A stretch of 64,000 nt of DNA from Flavobacterium sp. LMO8 (GTDB lineage Bacteria > Bacteroidota > Bacteroidia > Flavobacteriales > Flavobacteriaceae). The stretch covers positions 541,421-605,420 of the forward strand of contig NZ_WIBJ01000031.1 in NCBI RefSeq assembly GCF_009495755.1, in the 5' to 3' direction. The notes under the pieces were generated by a model. The model was not told where the DNA came from. It ran no database searches and saw only the letters and a program-made list of their open reading frames with translations. Shown one piece after another: positions 2,852 to 50,912 of this stretch (positions within the stretch are counted from its first letter, which is position 1; every line of letters starts with the position of its first letter). Made by a program: the position numbers and the translations under genes.

Positions 2852-2887
2852 AAATCCGATTAGAATTTCTAATCGGATTTTTTTTTT
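2852..2887 (+). terminator. Rho-independent terminator after the HMA gene
   Basis: A 12-bp perfect stem (left arm 2852-2863, right arm 2869-2880) with a 5-base loop is followed by a run of ten T residues. It closes the receptor/HMA transcript. An almost identical hairpin stands at 10166-10202, after the DUF2490 gene. Confidence 0.85.
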
Positions 2888-2927: not shown

Positions 2928-2935
2928 TACATTTG
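2928..2935 (+). promoter_or_regulatory. Bacteroidota -7 element (TACATTTG)
   Basis: TACATTTG matches the flavobacterial -7 consensus TAnnTTTG. A TTG lies 15 bases upstream, slightly closer than the usual 17-23. The predicted transcript start near 2942 falls downstream of the TTG codon at 2938, which argues against that codon and in favour of the TTG at 2965 as start of the next gene. Confidence 0.5.
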
Positions 2936-2964: not shown

Positions 2965-3333
2965 TTGAAAAAAAATATAAAATTATTTCCAATTTTCATG
3001 CTTGCATTTTTTATGTGGGCTATTGGTGTTTCTTTGAATACTTCAAATGAGGTAGCATTAGAATCTCAAGTTGAATTTCAACAAAAATATAAAGCTTCTG
3101 ATTTTTCTCATTTTCATACTATTGAGGTTGAAGAAGGAGAGTTTGTAATAATTGAATCAGAACCTGAATTTGAAGTTGAGTTAGATTGTTTTTCAATCTC
3201 AACTAAATCTGTAAACATTAAAAACACAAAGTTTACAGAAAGTTCAAATTCCTATTCTGCCCAATTATCTTCTTCAAAAGAAACTATTCCACTTTACGAT
3301 TTATATTGTAATTGGAAATTCCATTTGTCTTAA
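2965..3333 (+). CDS. Small exported protein of unknown function upstream of dabA
   Basis: The frame is open from 2938, but I place the start at the TTG at 2965 (MKKNIKLFPIF...), because it gives a normal N-terminus (KK, then a hydrophobic stretch at about residues 5-24) and lies downstream of the predicted transcription start. The product is 122 residues: a signal peptide or signal anchor, then an acidic polar middle, and a C-terminus IPLYDLYCNWKFHLS. That tail matches the tail of the partial protein at 2-184 (PLYxLYC plus aromatic residues), suggesting a related small secreted family. No domain is recognised. The gene is 76 bases before dabA on the same strand, with no terminator between, so it may belong to the carbon transport locus. 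An alternative start is ATG 2998. Confidence 0.6.
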   Translation: MKKNIKLFPIFMLAFFMWAIGVSLNTSNEVALESQVEFQQKYKASDFSHFHTIEVEEGEFVIIESEPEFEVELDCFSISTKSVNIKNTKFTESSNSYSAQLSSSKETIPLYDLYCNWKFHLS

Positions 3334-3409
3334 TACGATAATTATTTTTTAAGATTTCAAACCTTTTGAAATCAATAATTTATTTGTATTAATTCAATTT
3401 CATTATAAA

Positions 3410-5905
3410 ATGAAAACACAAAATGTTAGTTTTGATGAGCACAAAGTTCTTCATAACTTAACCCATTATTTACCAGCACAAAATCCGTTGAAAGACTTTG
3501 TGCACCACAATACTTTGCACGCTTTTCAAAGTAAAAAATTTCACGATGCACTACTAGAAGCTTCTACTATTTTTGGTTATAAGACTTATTTGTCTATAGC
3601 TGATTTCAGACAACGATTTGCTAATAAAGAAATCAATGAAGCCGTTTTAGATAGTATTGTTACAAAAACAAAAGGAGCTGAAAATCTTCAAACTTGGAAA
3701 GAAAAATTACTGAAAACCAATTATGATGAATCCGTTTCTCCAAGAATAGGAAGTTTGCGTTCTAATTGGAAGAAATACTATGCTATCAATTTAGAGAAAT
3801 CGACACATAGTTTATTGTTTAGAGTTTTGTGTAGTTATTTAGATCAAGGGGTTGCTATTTGGAATTTTCCAGTTCATGACAAGGGGTTTTTAGCTTCAAT
3901 TAGAGAATTAGAAAAAAACACGTTCAAAGGAATTTTCAATTCAAACAGAGCTAAAAAATTATTAGATGAAAATGCTTCTATTACCCAATTACTTGAATTA
4001 ATTGTAGGGAAAGAAGAATTATTTGAGCAGTATTTGTTTGATCAACAATTTGGACATCCTGGTTGGAGTGGAATGGTAGCCACGATTGAAAATAATCCAA
4101 GCTCTTTATTAGATACTAAGCAAATCAGTTTAGAAGAATTAATAAAATTTGAATTGCTTTTAGAGATTGATACTTTAGACACTAAGTTTCATGATATTTG
4201 GGCACCACTTGGTTTTAAAATTGAAAACGAGGAATTTTTATTGTTTGAAAAAGTAGCGTACAACGAACTTTTCGATGTATTGTCGCTTTGGCAACAAGCA
4301 TTTGAATGGAATTTTTATGACGCAGTTTTATCAAATGTTCAAAATGTAAAAGAAGTTAAACAAGAGAATATGCCTAGTTTTCAAGGTATGTTTTGTATGG
4401 ACGATAGAGAATGCTCGTTCAGAAGACATATCGAACACATCGATAAAAATGTTTGTACTTATGGAACGGCCGCTTTCTTTAATTTTGAGTTCTTCTATCA
4501 ACCAGTAAATGGAAAATTTTATACCAAATTATGCCCAGCACCGGTTACTCCAAAATTTTTAATCAAAGAAGAACCTAGAAAGAAAAAACAGGCCAAAGAT
4601 TTGCATTATCACAAACAATCACACTCGTTGTTTTTTGGTTGGATCATTAGTCAAACCTTAGGTTTTTCATCGGCTTTAAAATTGTTCTTGAATATTTTTA
4701 AACCTTCGATGTCGCCAGCAACAACATCTTCTTTCAAACATTTACATAAAAAATCAAAATTGGTTATCGAAAACAAAGATGCCAATCAAAGAGAAAATGA
4801 TTTGCAGATTGGTTTTTCAGTAGAAGAAATGGCCAATAGAGTAGAAGGCTTGTTGAAAAGTATCGGATTAGTGTCAAATTTTTCTCCAATAGTTTACGTT
4901 GTTGGGCACGGAGCAACTAGTATCAACAATACACATTATGCAGGTTACGATTGTGGTGCTTGTTGTGGAAGACCAAGTTCGGTAAACGCAAAAGTAGCTT
5001 CGTTTGCAGCAAATCATTCAGAAGTTAGAGCTATTTTGAAAGAAAGAGGAATTGATATTTCAACTTCAACGCAATTTTTACCGGCTTTACATGATACGAC
5101 TCGTGATGAAATTGCTTTTTATGATGAAGATACTTTGTCGGAAAATAATAAAGCATTGCACCAACAAAATGTAATTACGTTTACCAAAGCTTTAGATAAC
5201 AATGCAAAAGAGCGTTCAAGACGTTTCGATACGATTGATTCTTCATATACTATAGAAAAAGTACACGAAAAAGTTAAACGTCGTTCGTTATCCTTATTTG
5301 AACCGCGTCCTGAGTTAAATCATGCTACAAATGCGATGTGTATTGTAGGAAGAAGAAGTTTGTCAAAACAATTGTTTTTAGACAGACGTTCTTTCTTGAA
5401 TTCGTATGACTACGAAGTAGATCCTTCTGGAGATTATTTAGCCATTATTTTAGGAGCTGTTGCTCCAGTGGGTGGCGGAATTAATCTGGAATACTATTTC
5501 TCAAGAGTTGATAATCAAAAACTTGGAGCAGGTTCTAAATTACCTCATAATGTGATGGGGTTAATTGGAGTTGCTAACGGAATTGATGGCGATTTACGTC
5601 CAGGTTTACCAAGTCAAATGATTGAAGTGCATGACCCAGTTCGTTTGTTAGTTATTGCCGAACATTTCCCAGAGAAAGTGATGTATGCGATTACCAAAAA
5701 TCCAGCTACTTACGAATGGTTTAAGAACGATTGGGTGAAATTAGTATCTGTCCAACCTGAAACTAAAGAACTTTTTGTTTTTGAAGAGGAGAAGTTTGTT
5801 CCCTATCAACCTATTCAAGCTGTTAATTTCATTAAAGATGAAATGCAGTTGATTGAAACCACAAAAGAGAATCTTCCGGTAGGAATAATTACAAATACGA
5901 TTTAA
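3410..5905 (+). CDS. dabA: Inorganic carbon transporter subunit DabA (DUF2309/UPF0753)
   Basis: The 831-residue protein belongs to the DUF2309/YbcC family, the DabA subunit of the DAB dissolved-inorganic-carbon pump. DabA is a soluble, beta-carbonic-anhydrase-like zinc protein. Together with a membrane partner it is thought to hydrate CO2 to bicarbonate vectorially, driven by cation movement. The expected zinc/active-site residues are all present: C329 and D331 in FCMDDRE, H500 in VGHGAT and C515 in YDCGACCGR. The H-to-C spacing of 15 is the same as in the characterised Halothiobacillus protein. The length is typical. The stop codon is 3 bases from the start of the dabB-like gene, indicating translational coupling. 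It should sit on the cytoplasmic face of the inner membrane. Confidence 0.93.
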   Translation: MKTQNVSFDEHKVLHNLTHYLPAQNPLKDFVHHNTLHAFQSKKFHDALLEASTIFGYKTYLSIADFRQRFANKEINEAVLDSIVTKTKGAENLQTWKEKLLKTNYDESVSPRIGSLRSNWKKYYAINLEKSTHSLLFRVLCSYLDQGVAIWNFPVHDKGFLASIRELEKNTFKGIFNSNRAKKLLDENASITQLLELIVGKEELFEQYLFDQQFGHPGWSGMVATIENNPSSLLDTKQISLEELIKFELLLEIDTLDTKFHDIWAPLGFKIENEEFLLFEKVAYNELFDVLSLWQQAFEWNFYDAVLSNVQNVKEVKQENMPSFQGMFCMDDRECSFRRHIEHIDKNVCTYGTAAFFNFEFFYQPVNGKFYTKLCPAPVTPKFLIKEEPRKKKQAKDLHYHKQSHSLFFGWIISQTLGFSSALKLFLNIFKPSMSPATTSSFKHLHKKSKLVIENKDANQRENDLQIGFSVEEMANRVEGLLKSIGLVSNFSPIVYVVGHGATSINNTHYAGYDCGACCGRPSSVNAKVASFAANHSEVRAILKERGIDISTSTQFLPALHDTTRDEIAFYDEDTLSENNKALHQQNVITFTKALDNNAKERSRRFDTIDSSYTIEKVHEKVKRRSLSLFEPRPELNHATNAMCIVGRRSLSKQLFLDRRSFLNSYDYEVDPSGDYLAIILGAVAPVGGGINLEYYFSRVDNQKLGAGSKLPHNVMGLIGVANGIDGDLRPGLPSQMIEVHDPVRLLVIAEHFPEKVMYAITKNPATYEWFKNDWVKLVSVQPETKELFVFEEEKFVPYQPIQAVNFIKDEMQLIETTKENLPVGIITNTI

Positions 5906-5908
5906 GTC

Positions 5909-7777
5909 ATGAACGAGTTATTGCAATATTTTATAGGGTTACCTTTTTTAGGCTTTATTATGAGTTTATTTTTGCCTGAATCAAGAGAAAAAGCCATCTC
6001 ATGGACGGCTTTTGGAACGGTTTTTTTACAATTTATAGGATTGGTAGTTTTTATCATTTTTTGGATAATTGACGGTGCTAAAGATCTGAATTTAGTAGAA
6101 TTATCAATATTAAAAACGGATCATTACGAGTTTTTTATCGATTTCTATTTTGATCAAATTTCTGCTGTTTATATGTTCATTGGAGCTTTATTAACTTCAA
6201 TGATAACTACGTATAGTCGCTATTATTTACATAGAGAAAAGGGATACAAACGTTTTTTTAATACGGTTTTGTTTTTCTTTTTCGGATATAACTTAGCTAT
6301 TTTATCAGGAAATTTCGAAACTTTATTCATTGGTTGGGAAATCATTGGAATTTCTTCTTTCCTTTTAATTGCTTTTTATAGAGAACGTTATTTGCCAGTC
6401 AAAAATGCTTTCAAAGTATTTTCAATTTATAGAATTGGCGATGTCGGATTGTTATTAGCCATGTGGGCAAGTCACCATTTATTTCATGAAAATATCACCT
6501 TCATGAAGTTAAATAATTACGAATTGGTTAACGAGCACTTGCAAAATCATTCCATAATCGGAATATTTATTGCGCTTTGTTTGGCTTGTGCTGCGGCTGC
6601 AAAATCGGCTCAGATTCCGTTTTCGTCCTGGTTGCCAAGGGCTATGGAAGGGCCAACACCGTCGAGTGCTATTTTCTATGGTTCATTATCGGTGCATTTA
6701 GGGGTTTTCTTAATGCTGCGAACGTATCCTTTTTGGGAACATCAAACATCAATGCGAATTGCAATAGGTTTAATGGGACTTACAACTAGTTTAGCAACTT
6801 CGGTTATGGCAAGGGTGCAATCTTCTGTAAAGAGTCAGGTAGCCTATAGTTCTATTTCTCAAATCGGAATTATTTTCATTGAAATTGCGCTTGGGTTTGA
6901 AACATTAGCATTGATCCACTTTGCCGGAAATGCATTCTTGAGAACGTATCAGTTATTAGTATCGCCATCTGTGGTTAGTTATTTGATAAGAGATCAATTT
7001 TACAATTTTCAACCCAAAAGTAAAAAGGAAAGTTTCTTTTTTTCAAGTCGAATTGAAAACACATTCTACATTCTGGCTTTAAAAGAGTTTAATTTGGAAG
7101 GTTTCTTGAATATTGTATTATGGAAACCATTGAAAATAATAGGGAAATCACTTAACTTTTTAAACATCAAGAGAATTTATTTCTTTTTTATTCCACTTTA
7201 TTTAATGGGATTCTTAGCCTATAAATTCAAAGTGGATTTGCCACAACAACTCATTTCAGTTTTGCCAGAAGTTTTCGCTTTTATTGGATTGGTATTTGTA
7301 TTCAAATCTTTTTCAGAACGAAGAAGTCCATTTTTAGCATGGATTTTAATTGTGATGAATCATTTTTGGATTGCATTAGCCATTGTGTTTAACGACAAAG
7401 TTAGCGTAAGTGAAATTGCTTTTTATTTGGCAGGAATTATTCTTGCAGGAGGCATAGGTTATATTGCTTTGCTTCAGCTGAAAAAAATAGAAATGCGAAT
7501 TTTAATTAGTCAATATTTAGGACATGTTTATGAACATCCAAAATTTGCTTTCTTTTTCCTATTGGCAACACTTGGAATTACAGGATTTCCAATCACTTCA
7601 ACCTTTATTGGCGAAGATTTGATTTTTAGTCACATCGGTAGTAATCAAATTGTACTTGCCTTTTTCGTAGCATCAAGTTTTGTAGTTTCGGGTATTGCCG
7701 GAATCCGAATTTATGCTCGTTTATTCTTAGGGCCTCATGTTAAAACATATCATGAGTTACCTTATAAATCATCATAA
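5909..7777 (+). CDS. dabB: Membrane subunit DabB (NuoL/MrpA-like cation-translocating protein)
   Basis: The 622-residue polytopic protein is related to NADH-quinone oxidoreductase chain 5/NuoL (Proton_antipo_M family). The central core is intact: GWEIIGISSFLLI (about residues 145-157) with the conserved Glu, and AAAKSAQIPFSSWLPRAMEGPTP-type sequence (about 228-250) with the conserved Lys. Being adjacent to dabA and not in a nuo cluster marks it as DabB, the ion-translocating partner that anchors DabA and couples proton (or sodium) flow to CO2 hydration. An amphipathic, less conserved region (about 360-420) separates the core from a C-terminal set of helices. Some database entries may name it NuoL, but no other Complex I gene is nearby. 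Confidence 0.88.
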   Translation: MNELLQYFIGLPFLGFIMSLFLPESREKAISWTAFGTVFLQFIGLVVFIIFWIIDGAKDLNLVELSILKTDHYEFFIDFYFDQISAVYMFIGALLTSMITTYSRYYLHREKGYKRFFNTVLFFFFGYNLAILSGNFETLFIGWEIIGISSFLLIAFYRERYLPVKNAFKVFSIYRIGDVGLLLAMWASHHLFHENITFMKLNNYELVNEHLQNHSIIGIFIALCLACAAAAKSAQIPFSSWLPRAMEGPTPSSAIFYGSLSVHLGVFLMLRTYPFWEHQTSMRIAIGLMGLTTSLATSVMARVQSSVKSQVAYSSISQIGIIFIEIALGFETLALIHFAGNAFLRTYQLLVSPSVVSYLIRDQFYNFQPKSKKESFFFSSRIENTFYILALKEFNLEGFLNIVLWKPLKIIGKSLNFLNIKRIYFFFIPLYLMGFLAYKFKVDLPQQLISVLPEVFAFIGLVFVFKSFSERRSPFLAWILIVMNHFWIALAIVFNDKVSVSEIAFYLAGIILAGGIGYIALLQLKKIEMRILISQYLGHVYEHPKFAFFFLLATLGITGFPITSTFIGEDLIFSHIGSNQIVLAFFVASSFVVSGIAGIRIYARLFLGPHVKTYHELPYKSS

Positions 7778-7790
7778 AAAATAATTAAAA

Positions 7791-9389
7791 ATGAATTCAA
7801 ATATAAAAAAATACATACCTGCTGATGGATTAGCGGGATTAAAGGAAAATTTTAAATCGGATGCAATATCTGGTTTTATCGTATTTTTATTAGCATTACC
7901 TTTAAGTTTAGGAATTGCAAAAGCTTCTGATTTTCCTCCAATTATGGGATTAATTACAGCTATAATTGGTGGTTTAGTCGTTTCTTTTTTTATGGGTTCT
8001 CGCTTAACGATTAAAGGACCAGCTGCGGGTTTAATTGTTATTGTTGCTGGCGCTGTTGCTGAGTTTGGTCAAGGAAACAACGATTTAGGTTGGAAATTAG
8101 CCCTTGGAGCAATGGTTGTAGCTGGAATTATCCAAATTCTTTTCGGTGTTTTGAAATTGGGTAAGTTAGCCGATTTCTTTCCACTCTCAACTATTCACGG
8201 AATGTTAGCTGCTATTGGAATTATTATTATTGCCAAGCAAATTCCTGTTTTATTGAATGATAATCCTGCTTTAGCAAAAGGGATGGGTCCAATTGAATTG
8301 TTATTAAATGTTCCGAAATTCATCGTCAATTTAGATACAAAAGCGTCGATTATTGGAGTTGTGAGTTTGGCAATTATGTTGGGTTGGCCATACATCAAAA
8401 ACAAGTCGATTAAAATGATTCCAGCGCCTTTGGTAGTGTTGTTATTTGCTATTCCATGCGAATTATTTATGGATTTTGCACACACCGAACCACCTTATGC
8501 TTTAGTGAAAATCGGAAATTTAGTAGATAATATCAATTGGAATGTCGATTTTTCGGGAATTAGTCAAACAGGATTATTTATTAAATATGTTATCATGTTT
8601 GCTTTGGTTGGTACTTTAGAATCGTTGTTAACTGTAAAAGCCATCGATTTGTTAGATCCGTTTAAAAGAAAATCAGACACTAACAAAGATCTAATTGCGG
8701 TTGGAATTGGAAACACATTAGCTGCTGTTTTAGGTGGTTTACCAATGATTTCTGAAGTAGCTCGTAGTTCTTCTAATGTTAGTAATGGTGCAAAAACACG
8801 TTGGGCAAATTTCTTTCATGGATTTTTTATTTTGCTTTTCGTTTTATTAGCTGCTCCGTTACTAGAAATGATTCCTAATGCAGCTTTAGCCGCTATGTTA
8901 ATTAGTGTGGGAATTAAATTAGCGCATCCAAAAGAATTTATTCACATGTTACACATTGGGAAAGAACAATTATTCATTTTCACGGTTACTGTTTTAGTAA
9001 CTTTATTTGAAGATTTATTACTTGGAATTGCTGCAGGAATGTTGGTTAAAATGATTATTCACGTTGTAAATGGTACGCCAATTTCCTCTTTCTTTAAAGC
9101 ACCTACGGTGGTTTCCTTTGTGGATAATGAATATAAAGTTGAAATTAATAAAGCCGCTATTTTTTCTAATTATTTAGGAATCAAAAGAAAATTAGAGGAA
9201 ATTCCGCCAGGTTATCAAGTTAGTATTTGTTTGAAAAAAACAAAATTAGTAGACCATTCTGTGATGGAAAATTTGGAGCATTTTAAACATGATTATGAAG
9301 CTCATGATGATGGTGGAACAGTAACTATCATTGGTTTAGAAAATCATAAACCCTTATCTTCACATCCAAAAGCTTCAAGAAAAATCTAA
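7791..9389 (+). CDS. SulP-family inorganic anion transporter
   Basis: The 532-residue protein has the SulP/SLC26 core: many hydrophobic helices over residues 20-430, with the N-terminal block AISGFIVFLLALPLSLGIAKA and a central GIGNTLAAVLGGLPM segment. A STAS-like C-terminal domain follows (about 450-515), ending in a polar tail. The family carries sulfate, bicarbonate or other anions. Directly after dabAB (13-base gap, same strand), bicarbonate is the most likely substrate, as in BicA of cyanobacteria. Many bacterial homologues near carbonic anhydrases have this arrangement. Substrate and coupling ion (often Na+) are inferred from context. Confidence 0.85.
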   Translation: MNSNIKKYIPADGLAGLKENFKSDAISGFIVFLLALPLSLGIAKASDFPPIMGLITAIIGGLVVSFFMGSRLTIKGPAAGLIVIVAGAVAEFGQGNNDLGWKLALGAMVVAGIIQILFGVLKLGKLADFFPLSTIHGMLAAIGIIIIAKQIPVLLNDNPALAKGMGPIELLLNVPKFIVNLDTKASIIGVVSLAIMLGWPYIKNKSIKMIPAPLVVLLFAIPCELFMDFAHTEPPYALVKIGNLVDNINWNVDFSGISQTGLFIKYVIMFALVGTLESLLTVKAIDLLDPFKRKSDTNKDLIAVGIGNTLAAVLGGLPMISEVARSSSNVSNGAKTRWANFFHGFFILLFVLLAAPLLEMIPNAALAAMLISVGIKLAHPKEFIHMLHIGKEQLFIFTVTVLVTLFEDLLLGIAAGMLVKMIIHVVNGTPISSFFKAPTVVSFVDNEYKVEINKAAIFSNYLGIKRKLEEIPPGYQVSICLKKTKLVDHSVMENLEHFKHDYEAHDDGGTVTIIGLENHKPLSSHPKASRKI

Positions 9390-9399
9390 TTACGGAATA

Positions 9400-10164
9400 A
9401 TGATGAAAAATATAAAAATAAGCTTGCTGTTCTGTATTGGAATAGTGAGCTTACTTACTGTGAATATTAGTCAAGCACAAGTAAAAGAAAGTAATAATAA
9501 TATTTGGTTGCATTATTTTGGAAAGAATATGATTACTGAAAAATTTTCTTTTTCATTTGAAACCACAATGCGCTACGCCAACGGATTTTCTGAAAAGCAG
9601 CAATATTTTATTCGTCCTTCAGTAGATTATCAATTTGCTAAAAAGTTTATGGGAAGTGTTGGATTTAGTCATTACAATACGTATTCCTATGGAAATCCAG
9701 CGATGAACAAAATCAGTATTCCAGAAAATCATTTTTGGATTCAAGGAACTTTTGTTCACAATAGCGGAAAATTAAAAATTACACACCGATTACGAGATGA
9801 ATTTCGATATGTTGGAGTTCCAGCAATGCAATCGAATTGTGATTTAGAAATAGATCATTACGATTATAGAAACCGAATGCGCTATATGTTTTTATTCAAT
9901 TATCCTTTGATAAAAAATGAAGAAGTAACGAAGTTATTTGCATTATTTGGCGATGAGATTTTCATGAATTTAGGTTCGAATGCAGGAAAAACATTTTTAA
10001 ATCAGAATCGAGTAATAGGTGGAGTTGGTTATAATTTTGACAAAAACCATCAAATTCAAATGAGTTACATTCATCAAAATATTTGGAATTATACCAATAC
10101 ATTTCAAGAAAGTAATCCTACATTTCGGCTAACTTATACAACTAACTTTGATTGGTCTAAGTAA
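9400..10164 (+). CDS. DUF2490 outer-membrane-type protein
   Basis: The 254-residue protein has a signal peptide (about residues 1-27, ending ISQAQ) and then alternating beta-strand sequence rich in aromatic residues, typical of a small outer membrane barrel of the DUF2490 family. The motif WLHYFGKNMITEKFSF near the mature N-terminus and the terminal TNFDWSK are consistent with that family. The function is unknown. It starts 10 bases after the SulP gene and is followed by a terminator, so it is the last gene of the inorganic-carbon operon. A porin-like channel for bicarbonate or a companion anion is a reasonable but untested idea. The start could be either of the two adjacent ATG codons (9400 or 9403). 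Confidence 0.8.
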   Translation: MMKNIKISLLFCIGIVSLLTVNISQAQVKESNNNIWLHYFGKNMITEKFSFSFETTMRYANGFSEKQQYFIRPSVDYQFAKKFMGSVGFSHYNTYSYGNPAMNKISIPENHFWIQGTFVHNSGKLKITHRLRDEFRYVGVPAMQSNCDLEIDHYDYRNRMRYMFLFNYPLIKNEEVTKLFALFGDEIFMNLGSNAGKTFLNQNRVIGGVGYNFDKNHQIQMSYIHQNIWNYTNTFQESNPTFRLTYTTNFDWSK

Positions 10165-10165
10165 T

Positions 10166-10202
10166 AAAAAAATCCGATGAGAATTTCTAATCGGATTTTT
10201 TT
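10166..10202. terminator. Hairpin terminator between converging genes
   Basis: The left arm aaaaatccgat (about 10167-10177) pairs with atcggattttt (about 10190-10200), with an inner stem extension after a G/A mismatch. It has an A-run on one side and a T-run on the other, so it can serve both the plus-strand DUF2490 gene and the minus-strand gene ending at 10205. It differs from the hairpin at 2852 by one base in about 26. Confidence 0.8.
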
Positions 10203-10204
10203 AT

Positions 10205-12559
10205 TTATTTTACTTCTATTACAAAATTTTCATTGTAAAGTTGTCCATTGTTATCGATTCCTTGAATATTGATTGTTACTTCTTTTTGTCCAAAATGTGG
10301 AGTTGAAAATTCAAATTCTCCTTTTTCGTTTGTGTAAATATTAGGAATCCAATCAATTGTGCCATAATTTTCAAAAGCTTCTCCACTATGGATAAGATAT
10401 TTTGGGTTTTCATAGTCAGTGTATGGCTGAAAACCATTTTTAACAACTATTGGTTTTGATTTAATTTGGTTAGGTTTTTCTTTAAATGCGGTTGTTTTTT
10501 TTGTATAAATTCTGATAGATCCATTAGCACCGTCGCTTCCCATTCCGTAACCTCTTTTGTTAATGTAAATTTCATCAATATCATTCAAATTCATATTCAA
10601 AAGAAAAGTAAAATCTTGTAGTTGTACATTGTCTAAGAAAACTATAGGGGTTCTACTACCCATTAATGATGTTGCATATCTCGCTCTAATTGTTACTTGT
10701 CCAGCTTGTTGCGATACATCATAGCCATGAGAAGCTATGAATGATAAAACATCTCTAAAGGTTCCGGCTTCTGTATCATCTATTTTGTATCCTTTAGCCA
10801 TTGAATTTCCATATTCTCCTCTTCTTTCTAGTTTAACTTTTTTTGCTTGAATTACATCTACATCTTTCAATTCATAAACACCTTCTAGTTTTGGAAATTC
10901 AAAATTAGAATCGTAAAGATTTTTTGTAAATGTAATTTCTTCACATATTGGTTTCTGATAGTTAAATGCTTTTAAAAATTTTCTATTTGTATTTTCTAAT
11001 TTCGAATAAATGCTTAGACTTTCTAATTTGTCATCTTTTTTAATTAACGAAAAATACAAAGTAGACGAGTCAACCGCCATAATGTTTTGAAATTCAAAGC
11101 TGTTGTCACCTTTTATTTCAGTACTTTCTTCTATACCGTTTATAGAAAACAATCTTAGTTTTGTATTTTGCTTGTTTGGAACATTTTGATTTATCTTACC
11201 AGTAACTGTGATTCCCATATCAAAAGGATGTGTTGGTTTTGGTGCATCATTTAATATGCGAGACCAATTGTATTTTGATTCTTTAACATGTAACAGCATT
11301 AAGTCTAACTCAAATGCTTTACGCTTGTTAAAATTTGTAAAATAGTAAGCGGCATCAAAATCTTCGCTATCAAAGTAGTTTTTAAAACCAAGATTAGTTT
11401 GAATATTATTATAATTATAGTTTGATTTTGTATTCTTAGGCAATACAGTAATGCTAAAATTTCCAATTTTATTAGGAATTGATGCCTTTATATTTAAACT
11501 TTCTTTTGTTTTTACTGTAGAAGTTAAGTTTAGTTTTGTTGAGTTTTCGTTTACATTATATATAACTCTTTCTGAAATAGAATTTAATTCACTATCTAAT
11601 AATCGTATAATGTTAATTCCTTCAAACAAACTATTTTTCTCAATAAAAAGTTCTTTAAATGGTTGGTCTAAAATAAAATCGACATAGTTAGCATAGTCGT
11701 TTTTTTGAATTAAAATAGAATAATTTTTATTTTTATTCTTATTAAAAGTTGTTTCATTAGTATTAATTTTTACCACAACTTTTCCTTCAATAGCATAATT
11801 ATTTATATGAAGATTTATTCCTTCAATCACGGGTCTTGGTAATTCTTTTGTTAAGGCTTCTTCATTATTTGGAATAATCAATCGATACGTTTCATTTTCG
11901 ATATTTTTTAATTCAAATTTTCCAAATCCTTCTTGATTTGTTGAAAAACTATTAACAACAACGTTTTTACTGTTTTTTACTTCAATGTTGCTTAATTTTT
12001 GACCTCTTCCGAAGCAATTTTTTATGGAAACACCAATGTTGTTGTTAGTTTGGTAAAGTAAACTGCCGCCTTCGAAAGCAAAATTTACAGAGAGTTGATT
12101 TTTGCTATTTGTGTTAACTATACTTTTATCTTGAACGTTAATAATTTTAATTTTTTGATTTGTAGCTTCATTTTCAAAAAAATTATTCATGTAATTCGTG
12201 TAGGTTTGAAGAAAATAATCTCCTGAGGGTAAATTTTCATTAATTTTAATTTTTCCTTCAACTATTCCATTTGCAGTATAGAATAACTGATTTGAAATTT
12301 CCGTATTTTGGTTGTCTACAAGACGCACAAAAACATTAGTGGTTTGAAAATTTAGTTTTGATTCTTTTTTTTCAATGATATATCCTTTAAACCAAATAGT
12401 TTCATTGGTAAGGTATGTAGTTTTATTGCAATGTAAATGGATGTTTTCTCTATCCATTTCGTAGTATTTTAATATCCCTTGTTCAGTTTTTTCTTTTATG
12501 GTTGACTGAGAAAAAACGCTTAAACATATAAAAGAAAATAATAAAGAGTAGATTTTCAT
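10205..12559 (-). CDS. Envelope protein with MG2-like and TonB plug-like domains
   Basis: The frame is open to 12607, but the start is set at 12559, which gives MKIYSLLFSFICLSVFSQ, a clean signal peptide; the longer frame would run through the groL terminator. The 784-residue protein has an MG2/macroglobulin-like beta-sandwich near the N-terminus (HLHCNKTTYLTNETIWFKGY, about residues 42-61) and more beta domains in the middle. A plug-like segment near 610-680 (PIVFLDNVQLQDF, IDEIYINKRGYGMGSDGANG) is followed by a C-terminal beta region. Such proteins are common in Bacteroidota and look like plug domains without a barrel. Their role is unknown; surface export or receptor partnership is possible. 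It has no close operon partner, since terminators lie on both sides. Confidence 0.75.
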   Translation of the reverse strand: MKIYSLLFSFICLSVFSQSTIKEKTEQGILKYYEMDRENIHLHCNKTTYLTNETIWFKGYIIEKKESKLNFQTTNVFVRLVDNQNTEISNQLFYTANGIVEGKIKINENLPSGDYFLQTYTNYMNNFFENEATNQKIKIINVQDKSIVNTNSKNQLSVNFAFEGGSLLYQTNNNIGVSIKNCFGRGQKLSNIEVKNSKNVVVNSFSTNQEGFGKFELKNIENETYRLIIPNNEEALTKELPRPVIEGINLHINNYAIEGKVVVKINTNETTFNKNKNKNYSILIQKNDYANYVDFILDQPFKELFIEKNSLFEGINIIRLLDSELNSISERVIYNVNENSTKLNLTSTVKTKESLNIKASIPNKIGNFSITVLPKNTKSNYNYNNIQTNLGFKNYFDSEDFDAAYYFTNFNKRKAFELDLMLLHVKESKYNWSRILNDAPKPTHPFDMGITVTGKINQNVPNKQNTKLRLFSINGIEESTEIKGDNSFEFQNIMAVDSSTLYFSLIKKDDKLESLSIYSKLENTNRKFLKAFNYQKPICEEITFTKNLYDSNFEFPKLEGVYELKDVDVIQAKKVKLERRGEYGNSMAKGYKIDDTEAGTFRDVLSFIASHGYDVSQQAGQVTIRARYATSLMGSRTPIVFLDNVQLQDFTFLLNMNLNDIDEIYINKRGYGMGSDGANGSIRIYTKKTTAFKEKPNQIKSKPIVVKNGFQPYTDYENPKYLIHSGEAFENYGTIDWIPNIYTNEKGEFEFSTPHFGQKEVTINIQGIDNNGQLYNENFVIEVK

Positions 12560-12580
12560 AAAAATAATATTTTGTGTAAA

Positions 12581-12614
12581 TAAAAAAAAACCGCTTGAAT
12601 TATACAAGCGGTTT
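12581..12614 (-). terminator. Terminator of the groS-groL operon
   Basis: The stem aaaccgcttg (12588-12597) pairs with caagcggttt (12605-12614) around a 7-base loop. On the minus strand it is followed by a long T-run (12581-12590). It lies 22 bases after the groL stop codon. Confidence 0.88.
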
Positions 12615-48549: not shown

Positions 48550-48593
48550 AATCTTATTTTGAATCGGCAAAAGTACGATTTTTTTTGGAGCTT

Positions 48594-48736
48594 TTTCCAG
48601 CTATCCACTACAACTCCACAATTTTAGCTCTTTTTTTCTAATTTTATTCGGTCAGCTTCTAAGGTCGCTGTCCAAATAAAAAGAAAAAATAGGTCAAAAA
48701 TTTGCGGGGTTTCCGTTGCTATCTGGGCTAGGGCGT
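48594..48736. repeat. Repeat-like intergenic element upstream of a small membrane protein gene
   Basis: The stretch holds GCTATCCACTACAACTCC (about 48600-48617) and, 90 bases later, GGGTTTCCGTTGCTATCTGG (about 48705-48724) with GGGCTAGGGCG after it. The two halves look like ends of a larger dispersed repeat that I associate with flavobacterial intergenic spacers. They are relatively GC-rich for this genome. No open frame of note is present. Confidence 0.45.
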
Positions 48737-50731: not shown

Positions 50732-50804
50732 CGCGGGATAGAGCAGTAGGCAGCTCGTCGGGCTCATAACCCGAAGGTCACAGGTTCGAGTCCTGTTCCC
50801 GCTA
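50732..50804 (+). tRNA. Initiator tRNA-Met (CAT), copy 1
   Basis: This 73-base cloverleaf has anticodon loop CTCATAA, so CAT is the anticodon. The anticodon stem has three G-C pairs next to the loop (GGG/CCC). The first acceptor position is unpaired (C1 facing T72), both hallmarks of the initiator. The T arm reads CAGGTTCGAGTCCTG. The CCA end is not encoded (CTA follows). Confidence 0.93.
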
Positions 50805-50834
50805 CTAAGAATTTATTGAATCACAACCGTACAT

Positions 50835-50907
50835 CGCGGGATAGAGCAGTAGGCAGCTCGTCGGGCTCATAACCCGAAGGTCACAGGTTCGAGTCCTGTT
50901 CCCGCTA
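50835..50907 (+). tRNA. Initiator tRNA-Met (CAT), copy 2
   Basis: Identical to copy 1 over all 73 bases, including the C1/T72 mismatch and the three G-C pairs below the anticodon loop. The spacer between the copies is 30 bases, so they are probably processed from one transcript. A terminator follows at 50913. Confidence 0.93.
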
Positions 50908-50912
50908 CTAAG

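Follow-up and report, generated by a model that had tools for sequence, protein, structure and literature searches.

We analysed a 64,000-nucleotide stretch of the genome of Flavobacterium sp. LMO8 (contig NZ_WIBJ01000031.1, positions 541,421 to 605,420; hereafter the window), in which an operon on the plus strand joins a dabA–dabB pair of the DAB inorganic-carbon family to genes for a SulP anion transporter and a DUF2490 outer-membrane barrel, behind a small open reading frame (ORF) (Table 1). The DabA, DabB, SulP and DUF2490 proteins all score above their Pfam cut-offs, DabA with 709 bits against a cut-off of 25. An earlier note on this DNA had described these four genes as tightly packed on one strand and closed by a terminator, with the zinc and active-site residues of DabA retained. 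These descriptions held: the gaps are 3 bases between dabA and dabB, 13 between dabB and sulP and 10 between sulP and the DUF2490 gene, the terminator is a real hairpin, and C329, D331, H500 and C515 lie where the note had placed them. The small ORF stands 76 bases from dabA and is not tightly packed.

The TTG at position 2965 is homologous in position to the start codon of the small ORFs of relatives. Upstream of it, directly after the terminator of a preceding TonB receptor operon, lies TACATTTG, which fits TAnnTTTG; we take the latter to be the Bacteroidetes -7 promoter consensus. In all 16 Flavobacterium-group loci compared, a count made without chance control, TAnnTTTG occurs 11–40 bases 5' of the start codon called for the small ORF, and 12 of these 16 have exactly TACATTTG. 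The terminators of the two operons form nearly the same hairpin; a simple terminator scan detects only the upstream one, and the closing one was scored by folding. Given the -7-like element on the 5' side and the terminators on both flanks, small ORF, dabA, dabB, sulP and the DUF2490 gene are taken as one unit.

Table 1. Genes and predicted signals of the dab operon (positions in the window)
Feature	Position	Strand	Description
Terminator hairpin of the TonB receptor operon upstream	2852..2880	+	13-pair stem and T run; -15.4 kcal/mol, z -5.7
TACATTTG	2928..2935	+	fits -7 element TAnnTTTG; upstream of small ORF
Small ORF, first gene of the operon	2965..3333	+	exported or membrane protein, 122 amino acids from TTG
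Predicted RNA hairpin I	3331..3391	+	stem starts at the small-ORF stop codon; fold z -4.1
Predicted RNA hairpin II	3398..3415	+	pairs the dabA start codon; AUG unpaired probability 0.01
dabA	3410..5905	+	831 amino acids, vectorial carbonic-anhydrase-like subunit; Pfam DabA 709 bits
dabB	5909..7777	+	622 amino acids, NuoL-like membrane subunit; Proton_antipo_M 135 bits
sulP	7791..9389	+	532 amino acids, anion transporter, probable bicarbonate importer; Pfam Sulfate_transp 230 bits
DUF2490 gene	9400..10164	+	254 amino acids, outer-membrane beta-barrel, probable anion pore; Pfam DUF2490 147 bits
Terminator hairpin closing the dab operon	10165..10204	+	-17 kcal/mol, z -5.1

A divergent clade of the DAB family

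The DabA family PF10070 is present in 25 of 299 genomes of the bacterial family, and the window DabA used as query gave matches in 16 of 150 genomes of the genus and 31 of 395 of the phylum. These matches fall into two groups with no match at 39–53% identity. The near group shares 53–94% identity with the window DabA (its own sequence excluded) and accounts for 10 of the 16 genus and 11 of the 31 phylum genomes, the source genome counted in each; the far group, ordinary DabA, shares 25–39% over the aligned parts, with ordinary flavobacterial DabA at about 30%. In the near group dabA precedes dabB, the reverse of the ordinary DAB order, and DabB has 621–626 amino acids in 88 of 94 rows. In the far group dabB mostly comes first, and DabB has 438–560 amino acids in 39 of 40 rows. 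The dabB-first order was also seen in nine of ten named plasmid loci, the tenth having no annotated dabB in its stretch. The single far-group exception in length, at 676 amino acids, comes from L209, a Planctomycetota metagenome-assembled genome (MAG) in which a clade dabAB pair stands beside a second, diverged pair; the DabA of the latter is clade-like at positions 334 and 638 and is the sole far-group row with clade-like residues.

For counts of clade loci we took the window and the best 80 loci from a scan of named genomes, which is a lower bound and not a census. Residue counts draw on 99 clade rows, loci fetched twice among them, with 90 distinct DabA and 83 distinct DabB sequences as denominators. 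The best 80 loci belong chiefly to Bacteroidota (Flavobacterium, Runella, Arcicella, Emticicia, Aquirufa, Spirosoma and others); beyond this phylum, the matches listed include Azotobacter chroococcum and one Planctomycetota MAG. The comparison sets were 44 far-group DabA (43 from Bacteroidota and the second DabA of L209, with the broken dabA of L120 left out) and ten named DabA of four phyla, from Alpha- and Gammaproteobacteria, Actinomycetota, Bacillota and Haloarchaea. We built a tree of 72 DabA from 53 of the clade rows, nine far-group rows and the ten named rows, using a quick method that gave long-branch warnings; a branch with support 100 sets the 53 clade rows apart from the rest. By sequence, the window DabA and DabB are a separate clade of the DAB family and not of the DAB2 type.

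Among the closest known systems is DAB2 of Halothiobacillus neapolitanus (PDB 9rd0), whose 2026 structure led to a proposal that proton flow is coupled to CO2 hydration via a DabA glutamate (PMC13144422, here and below from its accessible part). There the zinc ligands are C351, H524 and C539 next to a D353–R355 dyad; E444 on the DabA finger occupies the place of NuoL K399/D400, and its replacement by Ala or Gln abolishes activity. L658 replaces the Gln of carbonic anhydrases, DabB2 I151 replaces NuoL E144, and Ala at DabB2 H343 or K347 (numbers taken from the alignment offset) impairs the pump (PMC13144422). The window pair resembles DAB2 in its DabA family, zinc ligands, Asp–Arg dyad and adjacent NuoL-type partner: its DabA scores above the family cut-off, and the zinc ligands and dyad (C329, D331, R333, H500 and C515) are invariant in 90 of 90 clade DabA. 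It has none of the DAB2-type coupling residues Glu444, Leu658 and DabB Ile151. In DabA, Q415 stands for E444, H638 for L658 and E334 for S356; in DabB, E144 stands for I151 and N341 and R345 for H343 and K347. The window locus further differs from DAB2 in having dabA before dabB, a 622-residue DabB with a NuoL/NuoM-like stretch at transmembrane helix 12b (TM12b), and a linked SulP and outer-membrane barrel. Against the 9rd0_A chain, the C-terminal half of the window DabA scores 182 bits, compared with 329 bits end to end for an ordinary flavobacterial DabA.

These substitutions run through the clade. Position 415 is Gln in 82, His in six, Leu in one and Thr in one of the 90 sequences and Glu in none; position 638 is His in all 90, and position 334 is Glu in 86. 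In the far group, Glu occupies 415 in 38 of 44 and Leu occupies 638 in 43 of 44, and the named DabA have both residues in ten of ten. A Gly three residues beyond the finger position, present in every one of 33 clade rows and 44 far-group rows, anchors the alignment there. On the DabB side, E144, R175, D178 and K232 (NuoL E144, R175, D178 and K229) are invariant in 83 of 83 sequences, and the TM12b pair E569–D570, aligned with NuoL K399–D400, is kept in 80 and 83 of 83, respectively. At position 569 far-group DabB is gapped in 39 of 40 rows in one alignment and 38 of 40 in a second, as are nine of nine named DabB. The C-terminal part of DabB finds its best stretch also with Nad4/NuoM chains. 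This pattern suggests that in the clade the acidic coupling residue would sit on DabB, at E569–D570, instead of on the DabA finger. The clade is a natural experiment on the DAB2 coupling model, having Gln where E444Q is reported to abolish DAB2 activity and an acidic site on the other subunit. As a separate observation, the ordinary DabA of L026, L115, L121, L124 and L125 make up a second lineage, or several, in which the finger lacks its Glu.

The same residues bear on another explanation, namely that the clade DabAB has lost DAB2 coupling and works as a Na+- or H+-coupled transporter of bicarbonate or cations, a role that has been argued for MpsAB, and not as a proton-driven CO2 hydrase. It is favoured by the Q, N and R that the clade has at the three positions where E444Q abolishes and Ala at H343 or K347 impairs DAB2 (PMC13144422), and by the His that replaces L658 at the active site. 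However, zinc ligands and an Asp–Arg dyad kept in every clade DabA would be needless in a pure transporter, and DabB K308 and H337 are also kept in 83 of 83 sequences. We regard this explanation as unlikely. MpsAB of Staphylococcus resembles the window pair in that DabA and DabB homologs supply bicarbonate in non-autotrophs (accessible parts of PMC8552792 and PMC6689103). The plasmid-borne staphylococcal DabA we examined has, unlike the window, Glu at the finger, Leu at the active site and dabB first, and Staphylococcus has no outer membrane.

SulP and exchangeable outer-membrane barrels

A SulP gene lies within five genes of dabAB in 61 of 81 clade loci, and in 48 of 81 a barrel gene adjoins it (28 ExtI-like and 20 DUF2490). 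With a duplicate removed the counts are 60 and 47 of 80, and among the 54 loci with full flanks they are 43 and 33. SulP is placed downstream in 38 loci, upstream in 12 and upstream but inverted in 11. A chance neighbourhood was rejected, since the 44 ordinary DAB loci have one SulP and no barrel. SulP and an outer-membrane barrel thus belong with the clade dabAB, as the earlier note had supposed from gene order. Its idea of one system, put to a comparison of locus conservation, holds as linkage in most clade loci and fails as a strict rule, with 20 of 81 loci lacking a linked SulP and 33 of 81 lacking a barrel beside SulP. On the DabA tree the kind of barrel changes at least eight times and the arrangement at least seven times, counts made without a shuffled control; the barrel differs even inside the window's own group, for in F. 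proteolyticum, whose DabA is 94% identical, an ExtI-like gene fills the slot of the window's DUF2490 gene. Because two kinds of barrel have been exchanged repeatedly beside SulP, a real and specific outer-membrane step in bicarbonate supply is supported.

One could instead see an ordinary DAB2-like pump here, with SulP and the barrel as neighbours by descent and not functional partners. The zinc site and dyad as in DAB2, the clade loci without SulP, and the two of three genomic DUF2490 genes that lie elsewhere would fit such a pump. Set against this are coupling and active-site residues that differ throughout the clade, a linkage found in several arrangements with repeated replacement of the barrel, and the near-complete lack of SulP and barrels beside ordinary DABs; we consider it very unlikely.

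Both barrel types model as outer-membrane beta-barrels. The window DUF2490 protein has an N-terminal signal-like helix (residues 7–23) followed by eleven listed strands in an all-beta model with a predicted local distance difference test score (pLDDT) of 86.3, in keeping, together with its Pfam score, with a putative porin of that family. By VIA, the model matches PcoB, NanC and KdgM with Z of about 15 at 7–12% identity, other barrels following close behind; by Foldseek it has five matches at E <=0.001, to VDAC and NanC, with TM-scores of 0.14–0.51. The resemblance to the acidic-oligosaccharide porins KdgM and NanC is one of modelled fold, and kinship with them is tentative. In 23 sequences, R58, R72, R130, R132, R159 and R161 and E54, E109, E134 and E186 are invariant; since R130-x-R132-x-E134 alternate along a single strand, the conserved Arg and Glu may line the barrel lumen. 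The family is TCDB 1.B.81, in the accessible text of PMC4827864 a putative porin family whose functions are not established; the window protein shares its Pfam family and barrel fold, but here has a specific operon partner. Three ExtI-like proteins tested score 43–56 bits to porin_ExtI, under the cut-off of 150, and for the two compared with Pfam no family reached E 0.01. The ExtI-like model has a pLDDT of 81.7, and Foldseek lists MOMP, OmpM1, OmpC/OmpF, OprP and OprO for it.

The substrate of SulP and barrel might also be another anion, such as sulfate, phosphate or a selenium or tellurium oxyanion, whose uptake is balanced against bicarbonate, hence the shared operon. The SulP family is broad, with a sulfate transporter as the nearest solved relative; the ExtI-like barrel has its closest match, one below cut-off, in the ExtI porin of selenite/tellurite operons, and its model lists the phosphate porins OprP and OprO among many porins. 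Pointing the other way, a beta-carbonic anhydrase (beta-CA) accompanies a SulP ORF of 367 amino acids directly before dabA in the distant clade member L114, and beta-CA genes stand beside related SulPs in the window's own genome and in some other loci, within a neighbour annotation limited to named genes. We doubt that another anion is the cargo. All 65 SulP examined, including the CA-linked SulP of the same genome, have Glu at the position of window Glu277, where the BicA alignment has Asp; BicA Asp258 is presumably the sodium site. With Glu replacing the BicA Asp, proton coupling of SulP would be as likely as sodium coupling. BicA and the SulP/beta-CA bicarbonate loci, one of which occurs elsewhere in this genome, share the SulP family with the window, but SulP of the dab operon is partnered by DAB and a barrel with no carbonic anhydrase, and it has the Glu. 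Separately, SulP proteins of 712–766 amino acids with a long C-terminal extension occur in L107 (11916–14120), L170, L178, L202 and L204; searches of L107 with Pfam and of L202 with NCBIfam gave transporter families only.

The small first-gene protein and the spacer before dabA

The earlier note had suggested that the small exported protein takes part in bicarbonate entry. This proposal was not supported, and we put aside a role for the protein in entry or as a subunit of DAB, since its C-terminal motif, IPLYDLYCNWKFHLS, which is shared with the genes that head dabA or sulP units in relatives, recurs in related form (APPLYKLYCQLVFYA) at the end of the first gene of the neighbouring upstream TonB receptor operon of metal type. 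The protein itself is assigned to a family neither by NCBIfam nor, at its cut-offs, by Pfam. In relatives, small ORFs of about 108–181 amino acids with a hydrophobic N-terminus and often an acidic middle often lie upstream of dabA, or upstream of sulP where the latter leads. Such an ORF lies directly upstream of 80 of the 167 dabA or sulP genes examined (57 dabA and 23 sulP), the other 87 being a mixture of genes inside operons, contig ends and real absences. Between such an ORF and the following gene the median gap is 95 bases (73 cases), compared with 5 for dabA–dabB (89 cases). The consensus C-terminal motif is P[LI][YF]xLxxx[WLF][KRL][IL], and its best window ends at the stop in 39 of 72 distinct proteins and three residues before it in 23. 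In left-out scoring, a motif model trained on ORFs selected by position and hydrophobic N-terminus scored 47 of the 72 higher than the 99th percentile of a background of 303 other small ORFs, and 25 not. Of the 104 ORFs that score, in a count with loci fetched twice, 20 have ends of the APPLYKLYCQLVFYA type. In SulP/beta-CA loci, the small first ORFs end in PPP or QPP motifs instead.

The first-gene protein of the TonB operon tested, from L137, belongs to the HYC_CC_PP family (NCBIfam NF047658) with 144.5 bits; the homolog in the window's own genome lies just outside the window (L227). Like the small protein, HYC_CC_PP proteins are encoded by a first gene and combine a hydrophobic N-terminus with the motif P-P-L-Y-x-L-Y-C at the C-terminus, but the DAB small protein is without the HYC and CC motifs, and NF047658 was not matched at E 0.1 by the window protein or at E 1 by two relatives. 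The later part of this TonB receptor/HMA-like operon, which precedes the dab unit, occupies 240–2847 of the window (L227: 7198–10268), and its second gene is HMA-like with 19.7 bits, under the cut-off of 24.8.

A consensus of the spacer from 12 Flavobacterium-group sequences comprises hairpin I, running from the stop codon of the small ORF, and hairpin II over the dabA AUG. In hairpin I, five of 18 predicted pairs have double changes, mostly in the inner stem, with up to three of 12 cells broken per inner pair. Most of its outer pairs and all pairs of hairpin II are invariant (12 of 12), hence there is no covariation for hairpin II. The fold z-score ranges from -2.0 to -4.6 in the six of these sequences that were tested and is -1.2 in the more distant L150; in L136 the unblocked minimum-energy fold is without hairpin I. 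A simple SecM-type switch was not supported, since in the predicted folds the dabA AUG stays mostly paired (unpaired probability <=0.24 in the 12 sequences) when the 5' arm of hairpin I is blocked, that is, when the first 12, 15 or 21 bases from the stop codon (two bases later in L142) are barred from pairing.

Given that the first gene of the metal-type operon has the same kind of C-terminal end and that the start codon of dabA is folded into the spacer, we favour the reading that the small protein is a leader and probably not a transport part. In its bold form this reading predicts an arrest peptide, with which the leader anatomy fits in part; no such leader was found in the titles and abstract openings of the literature on arrest peptides in Bacteroidetes. 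A periplasmic binding protein with a conserved end is possible.

A putative inorganic-carbon supply unit

The source genome (2.74 Mb, 99.97% complete) has a single PF10070 match. The earlier note had reported no carbon-fixation gene in the window; extended to the whole genome, this stood for the large chain of RuBisCO, which had no match, with other CO2-fixation pathways outside the search. PEP (phosphoenolpyruvate) carboxylase is encoded. The note had remarked on the DAB of an apparent heterotroph, DAB pumps being best known from autotrophs; this is not in itself unusual, since DABs in heterotrophs are already known from the accessible parts of PMC13144422 and PMC10880623; the unusual part here is the DAB type. 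A second inorganic-carbon locus (L224: 8031–12497) comprises a small ORF ending SPPPNLI, a SulP of 537 amino acids, two tandem beta-CA genes and a divergent LysR gene. Because two beta-CAs lie beside a second SulP, DAB is not the sole bicarbonate route in this genome. In the accessible text of PMC8552792, MpsAB and carbonic anhydrase rarely coexist in one species; in contrast, 15 of 19 clade genomes tested (the window's included) combine DAB with a beta-CA. Three of the four beta-CA-negative clade genomes belong to other families, and within the genus beta-CA is missing in one of ten, compared with 0 of 21 same-genus controls. On these counts, we rejected the idea that the DAB generally stands in for an absent carbonic anhydrase, other carbonic anhydrase classes lying outside the search.

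With modest confidence, we lean towards reading the operon as a single transcription unit that supplies inorganic carbon and has a divergent DAB at its core. Bicarbonate, along with other small anions, would cross the outer membrane by way of the DUF2490 barrel, and SulP, judged by its family and neighbours, would move bicarbonate through the inner membrane. DabA on DabB would hydrate cytoplasmic CO2 to bicarbonate one way, as expected at family level, driven by ion flow through DabB; in the place of the lost DAB2 finger glutamate, E569–D570 of TM12b and the NuoL-type ion pairs would serve coupling. The bicarbonate may feed carboxylases such as PEP carboxylase, and the small protein and structured spacer would control dabA translation and carry no substrate. 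Bicarbonate import by SulP and barrel would suit CO2-scarce waters. No account of this operon was found in the listed titles, abstract openings and passages of the literature on DabA/DabB, DUF2490, MpsAB/DUF2309 and Bacteroidetes SulP/porin, subscription papers being outside its coverage, and the words porin and outer membrane are absent from the main text of the carbon-toolkit review PMC10880623.

Several points weigh against this reading. Linkage is incomplete in the clade loci noted above, and among those with full flanks 11 of 54 still lack SulP and 21 of 54 the barrel, so that contig ends explain only part of the absences. In structure matches, the plant sulfate transporter SULTR4;1 (E 4e-27) comes ahead of BicA (6ki1, E 1e-24), and SulP families carry several anions; the NCBIfam BicA equivalog model gives 155 bits, under its cut-off of 880, although membership of the SulP family is clear, and Glu277 departs from the BicA Asp. 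The genome already holds two beta-CAs. Clade DabB has N341 and R345 where the far group has His in 40 of 40 and Lys in 39 of 40, as do DabB2 and NuoL, and because these residues are replaced the proton path is not simply that of NuoL. The TM12b match of DabB to E. coli NuoL itself is weak, and since the five ordinary DabA named above have S or G at the E444 position, the finger Glu is not indispensable everywhere. No transport or growth test of any clade member was found in the literature.

A bolder version of the carbon-supply reading, speculative and in our view improbable, holds that the coupling carboxylate moved from the DabA finger to DabB TM12b, that SulP and an exchangeable outer-membrane anion pore form a two-membrane carbon uptake, and that the exported leader switches expression via a C-terminal motif acting on the ribosome, the same leader logic (a sensor middle, a common end, a first gene) operating in metal operons of Bacteroidota.

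Elsewhere in the window, a large protein with a sub-threshold MG2 match is encoded on the opposite strand at 10205–12607, where it separates the operon from a gene that by eye resembles groEL. A Flavo-1 RNA match of 47.7 bits lies on the minus strand at 48590–48733, and two tandem tRNA-Met genes with equal Rfam scores lie at 50732–50908.

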